Of a stretch of DNA of 64,000 nt, positions 2,913-45,178 are shown one piece after another. A model generated the notes under the pieces. That model saw only the letters and a program-made list of their open reading frames with translations, was not told the DNA's origin and searched no databases. Origin of the DNA: an uncultured Acetatifactor sp. (GTDB taxonomy: Bacteria > Bacillota > Clostridia > Lachnospirales > Lachnospiraceae); contig CALWRA010000001.1 of the NCBI GenBank assembly GCA_944383825.1, positions 1-64,000 of the forward strand. The letters are read 5' to 3'. Every line of letters starts with the position of its first letter. Position 1 is the stretch's first letter. The position numbers and the translations under genes were made by a program.

Positions 2913-3286
2913 TCGTCGTCTCCGTTGTCGTCGTCAGCTGCTCCGCTGTCCTCGTCCCCGTCTCCGGCTGCTCCCAGTGCGAAAGACGCATAAATAGCGT
3001 TCTGTACTTCTTTGAGGTTTCCTAAGTGGATAAGCGTTCCTACCCGCTTTTCCTCAATCAGCTGTGCGTTTTCGTCCTCTGATAACTGCCATTCGTTAAT
3101 AAGCAGGGTAAGCAGCCAGCGGGTGTCTTTAAATAAATCCGGGTTTTTGTCGTTGAAAATCTCGCCCAGCTTGTCATAGCCCCCAAATTTTCCCTGTACC
3201 TCGTCCAGCGCATTAAGGGAAAACAAAAGCCCGTACTCTTTCCCCTTTAATGTCACTGTGTATACTCCGTCTTTAATTGCGCTCAT
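2882..3286 (-). CDS. Tail assembly chaperone (gpG-like)
   Basis: A 134-residue protein starting MSAIKDGVYTVTLKGKEYGL, with an acidic Gly/Asp-rich tail (GDGDEDSGAADDDNGDDEG). Position between the major tail protein and tape measure gene, size, and a slippery heptamer 8 codons before the stop identify the G component of the frameshifted tail chaperone pair. It is expected to coat the tape measure during tail tube polymerisation. Confidence 0.85.
   Translation of the reverse strand: MSAIKDGVYTVTLKGKEYGLLFSLNALDEVQGKFGGYDKLGEIFNDKNPDLFKDTRWLLTLLINEWQLSEDENAQLIEEKRVGTLIHLGNLKEVQNAIYASFALGAAGDGDEDSGAADDDNGDDEGNRQGVQES
2906..2912 (-). promoter_or_regulatory. Programmed -1 frameshift site GGGAAAC
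   Basis: The heptamer is in the correct phase of the upstream frame (G GGA AAC), fitting X XXY YYZ. A -1 slip enters the downstream frame that otherwise lacks a start. Prophage B has a different heptamer at the same place, which supports function. Confidence 0.85.
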
Positions 3287-8983: not shown

Positions 8984-10636
8984 CTATGCGGCATTTTTAA
9001 GCAGCTCGCCACACTCTTCCCAGTATTTCTGCCGCACGGTCATTGCGTCTATGACAGATACAAAGCCGTCAATGTGCGCCCGCTGCTCTATCTTTATTGG
9101 TCTGAATTTCCGTGTTTCCATGTTGTGCTTAAGCGCCACGTTCAAGAAATGCCCCTTAAGCAAATTGTTATCTGCGATCTTGAAATTACCGTCTTTTATG
9201 ATACCCTCAAACTCCCGTATAACTGGCGTTAGGTTCTCGCCTTGGTATACGTCGTCCATGTGAAAACCGTAATTTGCCATATCGGTAATAAGGTACTGGG
9301 CGCTGTATCGGTCATATCCGATTTTCAGCGGACGTATGCCGTAAACTTCCAGCAGCATAGTAAACCAGTTGTAAACGTCGTGATAGTCTACGTAGTTGTC
9401 GCCGCTTAAAGTTATCAGCCTCTTTTTGACAAACAGATCATACGTCACGCCGTCCGTAGCCTGCAAATATTCCAGCCGCCCCCGTGGCATAAAGAATTGA
9501 GTAAAGGCGTACAGTACGCCGTCTTTCTCAATTACCACACTGGCTGCCGTAAGGTCTGTTGTCTGTGACAGGTCGATACCGCCTACTGCGTAGCAGTCCC
9601 TAAAGTCCTCTAAGGTCTTTTCAACGCCTGTGCCGTCTACTGTCGCATATTCCAGCCATGCAATAGAGCTGTTCTGCTTGATATTGCAGTATTTTGTAAT
9701 AAACTCTGCCTTTTTGCTTAAACTGCCCTCTGCTACTGCGATCTCGTCCATAAAAAAGCTCTCCTGCACAGATACGCCCATGTTCGGGTTAGCCTTTTTC
9801 AGCTCTTCTATGTCGTTCCACTTTTCTATGTCGTCTATCATGTATAAGAACGGCAAAAGCCGTCTTTCCTTGCTGTTGCCCTTTAAAAAGCTGGTGCTAC
9901 GTTTCATCAGTTCGTCATAAATACTGTCGTTGATATATCCGGCTGTACTTATGCTCAATATCATAGGCTGCCGCCGTGCGCCCAGCGCAGACTTCATAAC
10001 CTCGTACTGTTTCAGTCCAGCGTCCCCGCTCCATGCTGCCATTTCATCACATACCACAAGCTGCGGGTTAAATCCGTCTGATTTTTTCGCATTGAAAGCG
10101 ATCGGTTTAATGGTGGTGTTCGTCTCGGCAATGTAAATATCGCTGCGCCGTTTCTTTGCCAGCTCTGCAAGTTCCTCTTCCGCCTGCACCATTTGATAAA
10201 AGCCGTCGTACACAAGCGCTGCCTGATCTAATTTCGGTGCAAGGCAGTATATTTCTTGTCCGTACTCCGGCTCTAAATATGCCATATATGCTATGATCGC
10301 AGAGGCAAATAAACTTTTACCGTTTTTTCTTCCGATCACAATAAAAATTTCACGGAAAATCCGTGTTTTTTCTGCGTCCTGTATACCAAAAATGACGCAT
10401 ACTATAGCTTTCTGCCATAGCTCCAATGTCAAAAGGTCATTGCGCCCCTTGCTGTGGTGGCAAAAATTTTCGATAAACTTTATCGCTTTATTTGCCGCCT
10501 TTGCATTAAAAAAATACTCCTGCTTTTCCAGCCCCGCTACAATGATCTGATAAACTGCCAGTATCCATTTACCCGCCACAATTTCGCCGCTCGTGATCTT
10601 GGCGCAGTATTCGTAAATATAGTTCCTGTAAGGCAT
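8984..10636 (-). CDS. terL: Terminase large subunit
   Basis: 550 residues. ATPase domain with Walker A-like GRKNGKS (residues 102-108) and Walker B LVVCDE (193-198); nuclease domain beginning VGGIDLSQTTDLTAAS with acidic metal ligands. It drives packaging and cuts the concatemer. It is paired with a small subunit and preceded by an HNH gene, the arrangement seen in cos-packaging HK97-like phages. About as long as its prophage B paralogue (555 residues). Confidence 0.96.
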   Translation of the reverse strand: MPYRNYIYEYCAKITSGEIVAGKWILAVYQIIVAGLEKQEYFFNAKAANKAIKFIENFCHHSKGRNDLLTLELWQKAIVCVIFGIQDAEKTRIFREIFIVIGRKNGKSLFASAIIAYMAYLEPEYGQEIYCLAPKLDQAALVYDGFYQMVQAEEELAELAKKRRSDIYIAETNTTIKPIAFNAKKSDGFNPQLVVCDEMAAWSGDAGLKQYEVMKSALGARRQPMILSISTAGYINDSIYDELMKRSTSFLKGNSKERRLLPFLYMIDDIEKWNDIEELKKANPNMGVSVQESFFMDEIAVAEGSLSKKAEFITKYCNIKQNSSIAWLEYATVDGTGVEKTLEDFRDCYAVGGIDLSQTTDLTAASVVIEKDGVLYAFTQFFMPRGRLEYLQATDGVTYDLFVKKRLITLSGDNYVDYHDVYNWFTMLLEVYGIRPLKIGYDRYSAQYLITDMANYGFHMDDVYQGENLTPVIREFEGIIKDGNFKIADNNLLKGHFLNVALKHNMETRKFRPIKIEQRAHIDGFVSVIDAMTVRQKYWEECGELLKNAA

Positions 10637-24797: not shown

Positions 24798-25844
24798 TCA
24801 TGCCGTGATTTTCTCCAATTCCTCTTCAAACAATTCCTTGGATGTCTTAAAGCCTAAAATGCCCCTGGGGTATGTATTTATCCAGCTTTCTATAAACTCT
24901 ATATCCTTATCCTGCTTTTCGTCAAAATCTTCTCCCTTTGGTATGTGGCGGCGTATCAGTTTGTTTTGGTTCTCGTTTGTCCCCCTCTCCCATGAACTAT
25001 ACGGGTGACAATAGAAAATGTATGTGCGGCGTTCCCCTGGATGCAGTATAGAACGCTCCATTCCCTCGCAATCGGAAAACTCTGTTCCGTTATCTACGGT
25101 TATGCTTTTGAATATTTTATGGAACATACCGCCCCATTTTCTTTCCAGACGGTCCAGGGCATCCACAACGCTTTCCGCCTTTTGGTCTTTCAGCTTAAAG
25201 ATAATCTCATCCCTGGTCTTTCTCTCCGTCATAACAAGCAGACATGATTTTGTCACGCCCTGTTTGCCCTTTACGGTATCCATTTCCCAATGTCCAAATA
25301 TTTCACGGTCTTTTACCTCTTCCGGGCGGTTTGCAATGCTCTCCCCGGCCGCCGCCCTCTTCTGTACTTTCACTTTTTTGTTTTTCTTCTTTTTCTTTCC
25401 CTTTACTGGCAAATCTTTGTTCGTGATTTTTAGGAATATCCCATTATCAATATATCTGTATAATGTCCTTACGCTGATTGTGGTTTTAAACTCTTTTCCG
25501 CTTGTCTCTGCCGCTGCCAATGCGGCTTCCGGGCTGTATTTATCATTGGCAATTTTATCTTCCAGAAATTCCGCATATTCAACGTCATTTCCGATTTTTA
25601 AACTTTTGCCTTTTCCCTGGGCGTTCCAATCATGGGTCTGCTGCCCCTTATCACTGCTGTACCTTACCTCTTCCGTGTAATCGGAATTTCTGTGGACGTA
25701 TTCGCCCCGTTTTATCTCTCTGTATATCGTGCTTCTGTGAACGTGCAGATACTCCGCAACCTCCGGCTTTGAATATCCTTTGTTCAGCAGTGTTTCCATT
25801 TTTATTCTATCACTGTGTTCTAAATGCTTATAGTGCTTACCCAT
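24798..25844 (-). CDS. IS30-family transposase, probable prophage recombinase
   Basis: 348 residues. An N-terminal HTH (residues 10-47, HRSTIYREIKRG) and a DDE catalytic core: D189 (HWEMDTVKGK), D251 (ITVDNGTEFSD) and E286 or E291 (SSWERGTNENQNKLIRR). Length and motifs are complete. It is the leftmost gene of prophage B, 50 bp inside the left attachment repeat, and no separate terminal repeats bracket it as an independent IS. It is therefore the best candidate for the enzyme moving the phage. IS30-type transposases are known in Spiroplasma filamentous phages. Confidence 0.95.
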   Translation of the reverse strand: MGKHYKHLEHSDRIKMETLLNKGYSKPEVAEYLHVHRSTIYREIKRGEYVHRNSDYTEEVRYSSDKGQQTHDWNAQGKGKSLKIGNDVEYAEFLEDKIANDKYSPEAALAAAETSGKEFKTTISVRTLYRYIDNGIFLKITNKDLPVKGKKKKKNKKVKVQKRAAAGESIANRPEEVKDREIFGHWEMDTVKGKQGVTKSCLLVMTERKTRDEIIFKLKDQKAESVVDALDRLERKWGGMFHKIFKSITVDNGTEFSDCEGMERSILHPGERRTYIFYCHPYSSWERGTNENQNKLIRRHIPKGEDFDEKQDKDIEFIESWINTYPRGILGFKTSKELFEEELEKITA

Positions 25845-27735: not shown

Positions 27736-28899
27736 TTACACTTTCGCCAAATTCTTGACATTTACCGCCGCCGTTACGGTCTTTCCGATACCGATAACGA
27801 CACAGTCCCCTTTTACCTCGATAACATCATATTCCTTGTAGTAGGTTTTGAAACTCTTCCCGGTGTATGTAATGTTATTCGTTACCTTTACTTTGTCCCC
27901 CACGCTGATTTTATCGGATGCGGTTTTGCTGCCGGACAGAATGGCGTTTACCTCGCTCTGTACCTTGTCATAGTCATATCCGGCGGCGGTAAGGCGGTTT
28001 TTCCGGTCCGTGCTGTTTCCCCACTTCCCGGCAATGACTTCCTTTGCCACTTCCGCAACGCTCTTTGTTCCTTCCGCCGTTCCTGCGGATGCTTCCTTGT
28101 CATACTTTGGAACGCCATAGCCCCGGATGTAGCGGCCGTTTACGGCAATCGTCCGGCGTGCCACGGCGTTGTCCTTGTTGCCCTCGATAACGGTAATCTT
28201 TCCGCCGCTTACGCTCTCAACAATCCCCACATGGTCCGGCCACCCGGTATTGTCTCCGGTCCCGGTGTCGTTCCAGTCGTAAAAGATGATGTCCCCAGGC
28301 TGCGGCGTTCTGCTGTCGCTCTCGCTCCACTCTCCCAGGTTCTTAAATAACGCAATCATCTGTCCGCATCCGCACTCGGTCGGTATGATGTCCGTTGCGC
28401 CGCACTTGATAGCAACGGCGGAAACGAATGCAGCGCACCACGCATCCGTATATTTTACCTTGTAGCCCCTGGCAAGGGGCTTGTGGCTGTTGTATACGTC
28501 AATGATGCTTTTGTGCGTCCCGTCCGCTTCCTTTTTTCCAACCCACGCCCTCGCCTGGGCGATAACTGCGCTTGCTGTCTTTGCCATGCCCTCTTCTCCT
28601 TTCCTGTCATACCCGGTTAGATTGTACTGTGTGACAATCCGCATGGTATTTTCCACATATGTACTGCTTGTTGCGTACCCGTCCGCCTTAATGGTTTCCA
28701 GGTATTCTTCCGGGTCTGTGATTCCCCGTAAATTCTGGTATCGTTCCAGCTGGATAAACTCAAAGTACCCTTTTGCGCTCTCTTCCATGCTGCCGTATAC
28801 CCGTAAATTATCTTTAATCTGCGTGAGCGTCCCCGGCGCATATTCTTCCATTGTGGAAAGGTTTACGCTCCTACCGGTCCACTTTGTCCCGCATTTCAA
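27736..28899 (-). CDS. Endolysin: glucosaminidase fragment fused to CHAP amidase
   Basis: The continuous frame has a C-terminal part of a glucosaminidase domain (MEESAKGYFEFIQLERYQNL...), then a CHAP domain (catalytic Cys in YTDAWCAAFVSA, His in PDHVGIVES), a CW_7 wall-binding repeat (VIAGKWGNSTDRKNRLTAAG) and an SH3-like tail. A strong ribosome site AGGAAAGGAG (28596-28605) precedes an in-frame ATG at 28587, so the functional CHAP lysin probably starts there (283 residues). The N-terminal domain lacks its beginning and catalytic Glu. It digests peptidoglycan at lysis. Confidence 0.85.
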   Translation of the reverse strand: MKCGTKWTGRSVNLSTMEEYAPGTLTQIKDNLRVYGSMEESAKGYFEFIQLERYQNLRGITDPEEYLETIKADGYATSSTYVENTMRIVTQYNLTGYDRKGEEGMAKTASAVIAQARAWVGKKEADGTHKSIIDVYNSHKPLARGYKVKYTDAWCAAFVSAVAIKCGATDIIPTECGCGQMIALFKNLGEWSESDSRTPQPGDIIFYDWNDTGTGDNTGWPDHVGIVESVSGGKITVIEGNKDNAVARRTIAVNGRYIRGYGVPKYDKEASAGTAEGTKSVAEVAKEVIAGKWGNSTDRKNRLTAAGYDYDKVQSEVNAILSGSKTASDKISVGDKVKVTNNITYTGKSFKTYYKEYDVIEVKGDCVVIGIGKTVTAAVNVKNLAKV

Positions 28900-28965
28900 T
28901 CCAAAATAATTGTGGTATACGGATGCAAGGCGGCTTTCTCCTCAGCCGATGTCTGCTTGTCCATT
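28900..28965 (-). pseudogene. Broken 5' end of the glucosaminidase gene
   Basis: In phase with the lysin, this stretch reads GESRLASVYHNYFG after a TGA, the remnant of a glucosaminidase active-site region. The only ATG (28965) opens a different frame that stops after 22 codons. A deletion plus frameshift is the simplest reading. Confidence 0.65.
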
Positions 28966-28967
28966 CC

Positions 28968-29210
28968 TTACACTTCCTCTTCTGCGGTTTCAATGGTGGT
29001 TTCAACCGTTGTTTCCACGTTTGCGGCATCTGTAAAGCCCTCTCCGATAATGTAGGCCACCACGGACGCACCCGCCATGATAAGGGCCGTAATCTGGGTT
29101 GTCGTGTTTTCCGTTCCGCCCGTGGCTACTATCATCATGGAAACAAAAGATGCTACCGCCGTCCATAACTTCCGGCTTGTAAGTTTTCTTACCCAATCAA
29201 TGTTCTTCAT
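28968..29210 (-). CDS. Holin
   Basis: 80 residues, MKNIDWVRKLTSRKLWTAVA, with two hydrophobic spans and the TSRKLW motif of Firmicutes phage holins. An acidic C-terminal tail follows. It is located directly before the endolysin. It makes the membrane lesions that release the lysin. Confidence 0.88.
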   Translation of the reverse strand: MKNIDWVRKLTSRKLWTAVASFVSMMIVATGGTENTTTQITALIMAGASVVAYIIGEGFTDAANVETTVETTIETAEEEV

Positions 29211-29580: not shown

Positions 29581-29659
29581 CTTTCCCACTCTCCTTTCCT
29601 CTGTTTTTCCATGTCAATCATATAATGGATTGGCTTTTTATTCTGACCCACTTATTCCG

Positions 29660-29815
29660 TTATACCGCCGTTTTAATCTGGCTCTGCAATGCGAATTTCT
29701 CAAATTTCGGAAACTGTGACAAAATGGGATAAAGGTACAAGAGGAAATCATAGGTTTTCTGGTACGCTTTCATGCTTTCCATGTACGCATCTGCCTGTTT
29801 TGCCTTTTCTGCCAT
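29660..29815 (-). pseudogene. Truncated DGR accessory protein Avd
   Basis: 51 residues, MAEKAKQADAYMESMKAYQK then TYDFLLYLYPILSQFPKFEK, matching the first helices of bAvd four-helix-bundle proteins of diversity-generating retroelements, which are normally about 120 residues. It stops early at 29660 and the rest of the bundle, template repeat and reverse transcriptase are absent. It follows the variable tail gene, as in complete DGRs. Confidence 0.8.
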
Positions 29816-29833
29816 GTTTTAAACTCCATTTCC

Positions 29834-29876
29834 GCATACTGCGCAAAAACATGAGTTGTTTTCTTGTGCAGTATGC
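29834..29876. repeat. Hairpin/cruciform between target gene and avd stump
   Basis: Nine perfect pairs GCATACTGC/GCAGTATGC, extended by weaker pairs. It lies 54-96 bp past the target stop. DGR variable genes carry such an inverted repeat just downstream of the variable region to promote retrohoming; a terminator is the alternative. Confidence 0.6.
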
Positions 29877-29929
29877 TATATATATTTTTGTGTCCTTCTC
29901 CTGGGTGGGCTTCCGCCCACCCTTACAGA

Positions 29930-31024
29930 TTACAGACTGTCACACACGCACCGCACTCCCATGTTCGCGTTCACGTCCCACGGGTAGTTGTAGCAAACGG
30001 CGGCACGGCTGCCGCAATGCACGCCGTTGATCCAACCGCCGCCGACAAGGATGGCGTGTAAGGCTGTACTGCTCGTCATATAAATCTGCCCGTAACCGCT
30101 CATAACGTCATGCCACGCCCAGGAAGTGGCCGTAGGGTCTAGCACAAACTCGTCCATCCACTCCCAGACGTTCCCGGCAATGTCCATGATGTTTTTTACG
30201 GAAATTGCGTTTTTGATTTTTCCAACTGCCGTTCTTGCCGTGTTTGTTGTTGCCGTGTGGCCGTTCGTGTTGCTGCCGTCTAAGCCCTGTGGGCTTCCCT
30301 CTGCCGCAATCAGCCATTCTGCAAGGCTCGGCAGTCTCTTTCCTACCCTGGCGGCTTTCTCATTGGCGATATACCAATTAAGGCCCTCTGTACCTGTGAT
30401 TGGCGTTGCATTGTATACGGACTGTAAACCGTTCGCCCCGTCATCTGAAGCTATGTAAATATCCGCCCATAAGCCGTTCCCCAGGTACGCCATGCCGGAC
30501 GGTTCGCATTTCGGGCGGTGTAACGCCGTCCATACAGAGTTTGGCGCAATATCTTCCCTCACGTTGCTTTCCCAGCCGCTCCCACGGACGCTTCCGCTTA
30601 CGTTGATTTCCCGGCCGTACTCGTCCACGTTGCGGACATATCCATAATGGAAACCGCCAATCTTCCGGGTGTTGGTATCGTCCCATTCTTCCCCGTCCGG
30701 GAATGTTGAATTTTCAGAGATTAAATAAACCTCGCTTGCGCTGTCAAGCCCATTGTCACAGATATAGATATAATAATCCTTTCCATGCTCAAAGCTGCTT
30801 GCCCCGTCCAGGTTGGCGGTGGAAAGTACGGTTTCCTCGGTCTGAAAAATGGCATCCCCAACGGCGATAACCGCCCCGGCAAGCACTGTTATCTGTCCTG
30901 CTGCCGTATACTGTATAAATGCCTTTTCCGCCGCCACAATGTCCGATACTGCCGCCATTTTGGCAACTGTGATTTTTGCCCGTTCATCCGTCATATTCTC
31001 GTCATAAACAAATAATCTTCCCAT
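29930..31024 (-). CDS. Variable tail protein with C-type lectin fold (DGR target)
   Basis: 364 residues. The N-terminal half is a tail-fibre attachment-type domain. The C-terminal half is the formylglycine-enzyme/C-type lectin fold used by DGR targets (RLPSLAEWLIAAEG, IAGNVWEWMDEF, VGGGWINGVHCGSR, NMGVRCVCDSL). At exposed positions near the end, codons are NNY (CAC, GTC, GGT, ATC, CAT, GTT, TAC, GAC), as expected if AAC/AAT template codons had been adenine-mutagenised. It likely binds the host receptor. Confidence 0.85.
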   Translation of the reverse strand: MGRLFVYDENMTDERAKITVAKMAAVSDIVAAEKAFIQYTAAGQITVLAGAVIAVGDAIFQTEETVLSTANLDGASSFEHGKDYYIYICDNGLDSASEVYLISENSTFPDGEEWDDTNTRKIGGFHYGYVRNVDEYGREINVSGSVRGSGWESNVREDIAPNSVWTALHRPKCEPSGMAYLGNGLWADIYIASDDGANGLQSVYNATPITGTEGLNWYIANEKAARVGKRLPSLAEWLIAAEGSPQGLDGSNTNGHTATTNTARTAVGKIKNAISVKNIMDIAGNVWEWMDEFVLDPTATSWAWHDVMSGYGQIYMTSSTALHAILVGGGWINGVHCGSRAAVCYNYPWDVNANMGVRCVCDSL

Positions 31025-43510: not shown

Positions 43511-45178
43511 TTATGCTGTTTTTTTCTCGTTTAATAGCTTCTTTCCTATCTCGTTGTGGTACTTTGATACCATTGTCAGGGCATCAAATACGCTCATTGC
43601 GCCGTCTATGCGCATCCGCTTTTCAATCTTTACGGGCTTCATGCGGCTGTCGTTTAGGTTGATGTCCACCGCTACATTCAGAAAATGTGTGGCAAGCATG
43701 GAATTGTCCCCAAAATCAAAAAGCCCGTCCTTTAAATTCCCCTCAAACTCATGCAGGATAGGCGTTAGGTTTGTCCCCTGGTAAACATCATCCGTATGGA
43801 AACCGGCCGTTTTCAAATCTTCCACAAGGTAATTTGCGGAATACCTGTCATAGCCGATTTTCAGCGGCTTTATCTTGTATACTTTCACAAGTTCTATGAA
43901 CCAATTATAAACGTCCCTGTAATCCACCTGGTTTTCCCCGGATATAAATAAAAATCCCCGGTCCTTGTAAATGTTGTACGGCGTGTTGTCCTCATTTACT
44001 GCCACTTCATACCGTTTCTGCGGCATATAAAAGCGTGTGAATACATGGTTTATTCCGTCCCGGTTTATGACAACGCTTGCGGCGGTAAGGTCCGTTGTCC
44101 TGGAAAGGTCAATGCCGCCCACGCAGTAACATCCCTTAAAATCTTCCAAGCGCAGCGGCTTGTCCTCATGTACGCATTTCATCACGTCCCAATAGTCAAG
44201 CCATGCCACGGCGGAATTTTGCTTGATGTTGCAGAATTTTGTCATAAACTCCACTTTCTTTGAAACGGAATTTCTGGCAATCTCTATCTGCTCCAAATAA
44301 TATTCCTCTGATACGGACACGCCCATGTTTGGGTTGCTTTTCTTTAATTCCTCTATGCTGTCCCACTTCTCTATATCGTCTATCATGTAAATAAAAGGCA
44401 AGATGCGCTTTTCCCGGCTGCTGCCCTTCAAAAACGCCGTTGCCCTTTTAAACAGTTCATCATAAATGCCGTCATTCACATATCCGGCGGTTGCTATGGA
44501 TATGATTAACGGCTGCTTTCTTGCCCCCAGGGCTGATGTCATAACCTCGTACTGCTTCAATCCCTGGTCTCCCGGCCATGCTTCCATTTCGTCATTTACA
44601 ACAAGCTGGGGGTTGAAACCGTCTGATTTTTTTGAGTTAAACGCAATCTTTTTTATACTTGTGTTGAACGCCTTTATATAAATATCGCTCCGGCGTTTCT
44701 TTGTAATCATGTCCAGTTCATCATCTGACTGCACAATCTGGTAAAAGGCATCATATACAAGGTCTGCCTGGTCTAATTTCGGCGCAAGGAAGTAAATCTT
44801 TGCCCCGTACTCCCCGTCTATGTACGCCATGTATGCGGCTATCGCCGCCGCAAAAAGCGTCTTTCCGTTCTTACGGGCAACGATTATGAATACTTCCCTA
44901 AACTGCCTGTACCCCGTTGCCTTGTCCGTTACGCCAAATATGGCGGAAACAATCGCCTTTTGCCATAGTTCCAGGTGTAAAAGGTCGCTGCGCCCCTCGG
45001 AATGGTGGCAGAAATTCTCTATGAATTTTATCGCCTTATTTGCTTTTTTCTCGTTAAATCCCCACTCGCCATTCAATAGCCCGGCTGTTAAAATCTCATA
45101 GCACAACCGCACCCATACACCTACTGTTACTTCGCCTTTTTGGATTGCTTCGTGGTATCTGAAAATCCAGTTATCCAT
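43511..45178 (-). CDS. terL: Terminase large subunit
   Basis: 555 residues, with Walker A-like ARKNGKT (101-107), Walker B LVVNDE and nuclease GGIDLSRTTDLTAASVV. Clearly homologous along its length to the prophage A enzyme. Packages DNA and cuts concatemers. Confidence 0.96.
   Translation of the reverse strand: MDNWIFRYHEAIQKGEVTVGVWVRLCYEILTAGLLNGEWGFNEKKANKAIKFIENFCHHSEGRSDLLHLELWQKAIVSAIFGVTDKATGYRQFREVFIIVARKNGKTLFAAAIAAYMAYIDGEYGAKIYFLAPKLDQADLVYDAFYQIVQSDDELDMITKKRRSDIYIKAFNTSIKKIAFNSKKSDGFNPQLVVNDEMEAWPGDQGLKQYEVMTSALGARKQPLIISIATAGYVNDGIYDELFKRATAFLKGSSREKRILPFIYMIDDIEKWDSIEELKKSNPNMGVSVSEEYYLEQIEIARNSVSKKVEFMTKFCNIKQNSAVAWLDYWDVMKCVHEDKPLRLEDFKGCYCVGGIDLSRTTDLTAASVVINRDGINHVFTRFYMPQKRYEVAVNEDNTPYNIYKDRGFLFISGENQVDYRDVYNWFIELVKVYKIKPLKIGYDRYSANYLVEDLKTAGFHTDDVYQGTNLTPILHEFEGNLKDGLFDFGDNSMLATHFLNVAVDINLNDSRMKPVKIEKRMRIDGAMSVFDALTMVSKYHNEIGKKLLNEKKTA

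Follow-up and report, generated by a model that had tools for sequence, protein, structure and literature searches.

In the 64,000-nucleotide window analysed here, from the genome of an uncultured Acetatifactor sp., the minus strand carries, in this order, an Mtd-like target gene, its variable region (VR), a hairpin and a truncated avd open reading frame, followed by neither a template repeat (TR) nor a reverse transcriptase (RT). The initial annotation had taken this arrangement to be the remnant of a diversity-generating retroelement (DGR), and our analysis bears this out: the Mtd-like target, the hairpin and a 51-aa Avd stub are all present, and TR and RT are absent from the genome. On the same strand, the stub runs into what is left of the 3' end of the RT gene together with its downstream leader (29591–29660), a 107-aa phage gene (29266–29589; phrog_9428, E=1.6e-35) and the lysis genes (27736–29210), viz., a holin (28968–29210) and an endolysin (27736–28899). 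Elsewhere, the window holds two large-terminase genes (8984–10636 and 43511–45178), each accompanied by ParB-like and replication proteins; the two regions are phage elements that adjoin one another and are possibly phage-plasmid-like.

The receptor gene, its landing site and the Avd stub

The target gene (29930–31024, minus strand) encodes a full-length tail receptor-binding protein of 364 aa, which matches Pfam mtd_2nd (E=7e-30), the C-type-lectin-like FGE-sulfatase family (E=4e-12) and the PHROG tail-protein family phrog_11262 (E=1.5e-71), and which aligns in sequence over residues 29–364 with the PDB chains of Mtd from Bordetella phage (E=1e-17). The mtd_2nd and PDB matches together reveal the domain architecture of Mtd, with the VR at the C-terminus in the C-type-lectin/FGE-like module. 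An AlphaFold model of the protein, built on a shallow alignment (mean pLDDT 47.6), was too poor to add support. The locus is akin to the DGR of Bordetella phage BPP-1 (mtd/avd/TR/brt): its target is homologous to Mtd (92% of the length aligned, 27% identity) and carries its VR at the C-terminus, the stop codon is followed by a GC-rich hairpin, and Avd takes the next position. Unlike in BPP-1, avd is truncated and TR and RT have been deleted.

The VR (29939–30065, minus strand) spans 127 bp and aligns without gaps to the TRs of related phages. Its IMH-like 3' end (29939–29956, minus strand) comprises 18 nt identical to both the TR and the VR of the intact DGRs L010 and L027, and, by analogy with BPP-1, would be the end at which the cDNA is primed (PMC3240598). 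The hairpin (29903–29922, minus strand; GGGTGGGC-GGAA-GCCCACCC read from 29922 to 29903) begins 16 nt past the VR and folds as DNA with an energy of -10.9 kcal/mol (z=-5.4), a stability reached by 0 of 200 shuffled sequences. Target sites of phage DGRs are marked by a GC-rich stem of 7–10 bp closed by a 4-nt GRNA loop (PMC3240598), which we looked for 4–34 bp after the VR; the window hairpin, with its 8-bp GC-rich stem and GGAA loop, has this form and this position. A second stem-loop, GCATACTGC...GCAGTATGC (29834–29876, minus strand; -13.7 kcal/mol, z=-4.4), lies between the hairpin and the avd stub, inside a stretch of ~50 bp that is missing from L010 and L027.

The stub itself (29660–29815, minus strand), read from 29815, matches the PHROG family 'Avd protein of DGR' (phrog_3206, E=2.4e-11) and, as expected for a fragment, falls under the gathering cut-offs of the two Pfam families that it also matches, bAvd (E=1.1e-6) and 23S_rRNA_IVP (E=1.2e-5). 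The small ORF thus matches Avd profiles, a point on which the initial annotation had staked its reading. Homologous to codons 1–53 of the 129-aa avd of L010, the stub represents the N-terminal third of Avd, spanning 33 of the 107 bAvd profile positions. Its start codon and frame are intact, and over 44 residues, up to ...QSQIKTA, its protein sequence is exactly that of the Avds of L010, L011 and L027. This preservation would suit a stub that works as a small protein in its own right or has been domesticated as a regulator, a reading to which we give very little credence: the stop codon was made by the junction described below, about a third of the bAvd profile remains, recent loss explains the conservation, and the related phage L070 has lost nearly all of avd.

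A deletion mapped against intact relatives

Close relatives drawn from IMG/VR and GTDB genomes, where the available downstream sequence suffices, have an intact order of target, hairpin, avd (129 aa), TR, RT and lysis genes. The intact DGRs L010, L011 and L027, from Lachnospiraceae and gut phages, resemble the window in their target (88% identity), hairpin, avd start and post-RT sequence, and differ from it in keeping a full avd, TR and RT, with VR-TR differences of their own essentially confined to A's. Against these, the junction falls at 29663–29664 (minus strand), reading ...AAAACGGCGGT|ATAACGGAATAAGTGGGTCAGAATAAAAAGCC..., and joins avd codon 52/53 to the last codons of the RT (ACG GAA TAA, 29660–29652) and the leader downstream of it. 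Both flanks match the same relative, and positions 29591–29649 are 86% identical to L010 3528–3586. Moreover, the 107-aa gene adjoins the RT directly in the intact loci L014, L017, L025, L038, L039, L071 and L076. A single deletion of ~1.6 kb, corresponding to about 1897–3512 of L010 and covering the remainder of avd, the TR and nearly the whole RT, therefore explains the locus. A search of other phages with the exact 30-mer of the junction recovered this deletion from no further genome. An IS30-type transposase ORF (24798–25844, minus strand) lies downstream of the lysis genes and is 78–83% identical in DGR-bearing relatives; we rejected it as the cause of the loss, since its presence in these relatives marks it as regular cargo of such phages.

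An assembly artefact, in which avd, TR and RT are present in the cell and were dropped during assembly, finds some support in the tendency of near-repeats like VR and TR (~127 bp) to collapse in short-read assemblies. Such a collapse would, however, fuse VR to TR, whereas the actual break is situated within avd, ~275 bp beyond the VR, and is joined to the end of the RT; this position led us to reject collapse at the repeat. Further, three related loci have other, independent junctions of a like kind, and we regard an artefact of any sort as extremely improbable.

The deletion, as mapped, is recent. Over 44 codons, with 23.7 synonymous sites and 108.3 non-synonymous ones, the stub was compared with the L010 avd, the comparison on which the substitution count rests; 12 synonymous differences were counted against 0 non-synonymous (dS about 0.85). 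The lack of non-synonymous change implies a recent loss, with which the perfect hairpin agrees. If half of the divergence lies on the window branch, the stub has been neutral since the deletion and change has been clock-like, the deletion would fall roughly within the last 5–7% of that branch (95% bound).

The written VR and the absent donor

The VR bears the marks of the machinery that was lost. The NNY codons pointed out in the initial annotation are real: where the TRs of relatives have AAY, the window reads GGT, ATC, GTT, TAC, GAC or an unchanged AAC, and the VRs of relatives do vary at these codons. Within each of 14 intact relatives, the VR mismatches the TR of its own locus at 7–13 of 25–26 A's and at 0–1 of 97–98 other bases. 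The window VR was measured against the TRs of these relatives. Of the bases invariant among those TRs, it departs from 9 of 24 A's and from 3 of 70 non-A's (Fisher p=1.6e-4); against the L010 TR alone, the figures are 9/26 A's and 8/97 non-A's (p=0.0018). At the level of sequence, this A-bias is the pattern predicted by A-directed mutagenesis. The non-A differences follow from the divergence of the window's own TR and from continuing ordinary mutation, and, with the exact ancestral TR gone, some of the differences at A's may likewise reflect ordinary divergence. That the DGR family is active is indicated by L010 and L011, which are near-identical phages and yet have different VRs. In comparison with L010, dS is 0.19 in the VR (29939–30070) versus 1.12 in the rest of the target, as rewriting of the VR from a conserved TR would lead one to expect.

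The initial annotation had also suggested a genome-wide search for the donor components and offered, as one of its two readings, that the enzyme of another prophage goes on diversifying the target in trans. In the assembly (2.74 Mb, 43 contigs, 99.86% complete), the RVT_1 profile found no match, and the RT of the closest relative as a query retrieved a best match of just 14.7 bits (E=0.013). For the TR, a DNA search at E<=10 returned the VR itself and chance matches of 14–20 bases, and a six-frame protein search recovered the VR alone. Of a functional DGR, then, the genome lacks a DGR-type RT (its last codons alone remain, at the junction), a TR near-identical to the VR, and Avd beyond its N-terminal third; what it holds is an orphan DGR target, i.e., a DGR-written VR with neither RT nor TR in the genome. 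An RT may lie on unassembled DNA, given the 43 contigs.

Diversification by another prophage thus found no support in this genome. More broadly, a recipient-only DGR could be served from elsewhere in the genome or by related co-infecting phages, and the intact receptor ORF, 18-nt VR 3' end and hairpin, all near-identical to those of L010 and L027, are what such a recipient would need to offer; remote DGR targets are also known (PMC8144416). With RT and TR both absent from a 99.86%-complete genome, a co-infecting phage would be the sole source, and the window VR has non-A differences from the TR of every relative (8/97 against the nearest), above those of any self-contained DGR seen here. We therefore consider ongoing diversification in trans very unlikely.

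The other reading of the initial annotation, deletion of the DGR after it had diversified the receptor, agrees with the deletion mapped against intact relatives, the A-biased VR and the synonymous-only divergence of the stub. Hence, we consider it highly likely that the locus derives from a phage DGR through recent deletion of the donor half, with the receptor gene left behind. In the ancestor, an Avd-RT complex would have copied the TR RNA with errors at its A's, and the Mtd-like gene would have had its 3' end rewritten by the resulting cDNA. One deletion of ~1.6 kb then took avd from codon 53 onward, the TR and the RT save its last codons. What survived was the receptor gene at full length, carrying the last VR that it had received, along with the VR 3' end and the hairpin as landing elements for cDNA, and the lysis genes further downstream. 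In all likelihood, the tail protein is still made and used with diversification switched off, so that the receptor would now change by ordinary mutation alone and be locked on one binding specificity. We infer that diversification was lost and specificity fixed; judged from sequence, the receptor protein is probably frozen. The surviving landing site could presumably still accept the cDNA of a related co-infecting phage. The deletion may have been favoured after a good variant arose, or the resident prophage may simply be decaying neutrally, alternatives that the present data do not separate.

Independent losses and orphan targets

By sequence comparison, at least three related phages or phage groups have each lost the same cassette in an event of their own: L070, L122 and L097/L099. 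The genome of L070 (G433, 98% complete) has no RVT_1 match and no TR, and its target shares 91% identity with that of L119 and 89% with that of L110, both of which bear a DGR. Homology breaks off at the start codon of avd and is regained about 0.1 kb beyond the RT match (site of the loss in L070, 2402–2580), and the VR differs from the L119 TR at 13/22 A's and 11/98 other bases (p=6e-6). L122 is 97.7% identical over 3.2 kb, upstream of the loss, to the DGR-bearing L120 and has no hairpin, avd, TR or RT (site 3162–3260); its VR differs from the L120 TR at 12/27 A's and at 0/99 other bases. L097 and L099, contigs 99.9% identical from two metagenomes, are 82% identical to L093 until just past the hairpin, and the match resumes right after the aligned RT; their VR is without the otherwise invariant Trp-349. 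The hairpins of these orphans are eroded to different stages, with the loop changed from GGAA to AGAA in L070 and the stem damaged in L097/L099, whereas that of the window is not, a contrast that fits both a role of the hairpin in retrohoming and the recency of the loss in the window. Across the set, which includes some redundant contigs, RT is present in 56 of the 62 loci with >=2.5 kb of downstream sequence. The shared extent of the losses may simply reflect that tolerated deletions have to spare the target and the lysis genes. We offer only as a tentative and rather unlikely generalization that cassette removal with retention of the receptor is a recurrent step that fixes specificity in Mtd-type phages, fresh orphans being open to re-diversification in trans during co-infection.

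Orphan DGR targets as such are already known: VRs left after the loss of RT and TR have been described in Treponema denticola (PMC4891356) and, with all3226, in Nostoc/Anabaena, where it was suggested for cyanobacteria that the machinery is removed after selection of a good variant (PMC7517822). Those are cellular genes, in contrast to the prophage tail protein in the window, with its base-level junction, avd remnant and intact landing site. The DiGReF survey likewise reported DGRs inactivated through truncated RTs (PMC3521204); there the RT was broken in place by a transposon, nonsense or frameshift, whereas in the window the donor cassette was cleanly removed. What is added here is a phage example, with the junction resolved to the base, a remnant of avd, a preserved landing site and independent parallels. 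DGRs are thought to let phages track changing host receptors. A fresh orphan with an intact landing site, together with relatives that were orphaned independently and stand at different stages, makes it testable whether phages shed the mutator after a good variant arises and whether, in nature, the target gene of one phage can be written by the DGR of another; the L122/L120 pair provides a natural before-and-after comparison of the loss.

The RT-less loci L149/L153 and L150/L151 were left out of the count of losses, as we identified no close relative of theirs with a DGR and their contigs are possibly fragments. On the ~42-kb contigs L149 and L153, the Mtd-like targets are 80% identical and differ at VR-type positions, and sequence similarity stops right after the target. 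Those of L150 (1167–2105) and L151 (5001–5942) differ at 27% of their nucleotides and have VR-equivalent segments near-identical in protein, which, on sequence comparison, is a naturally frozen VR.
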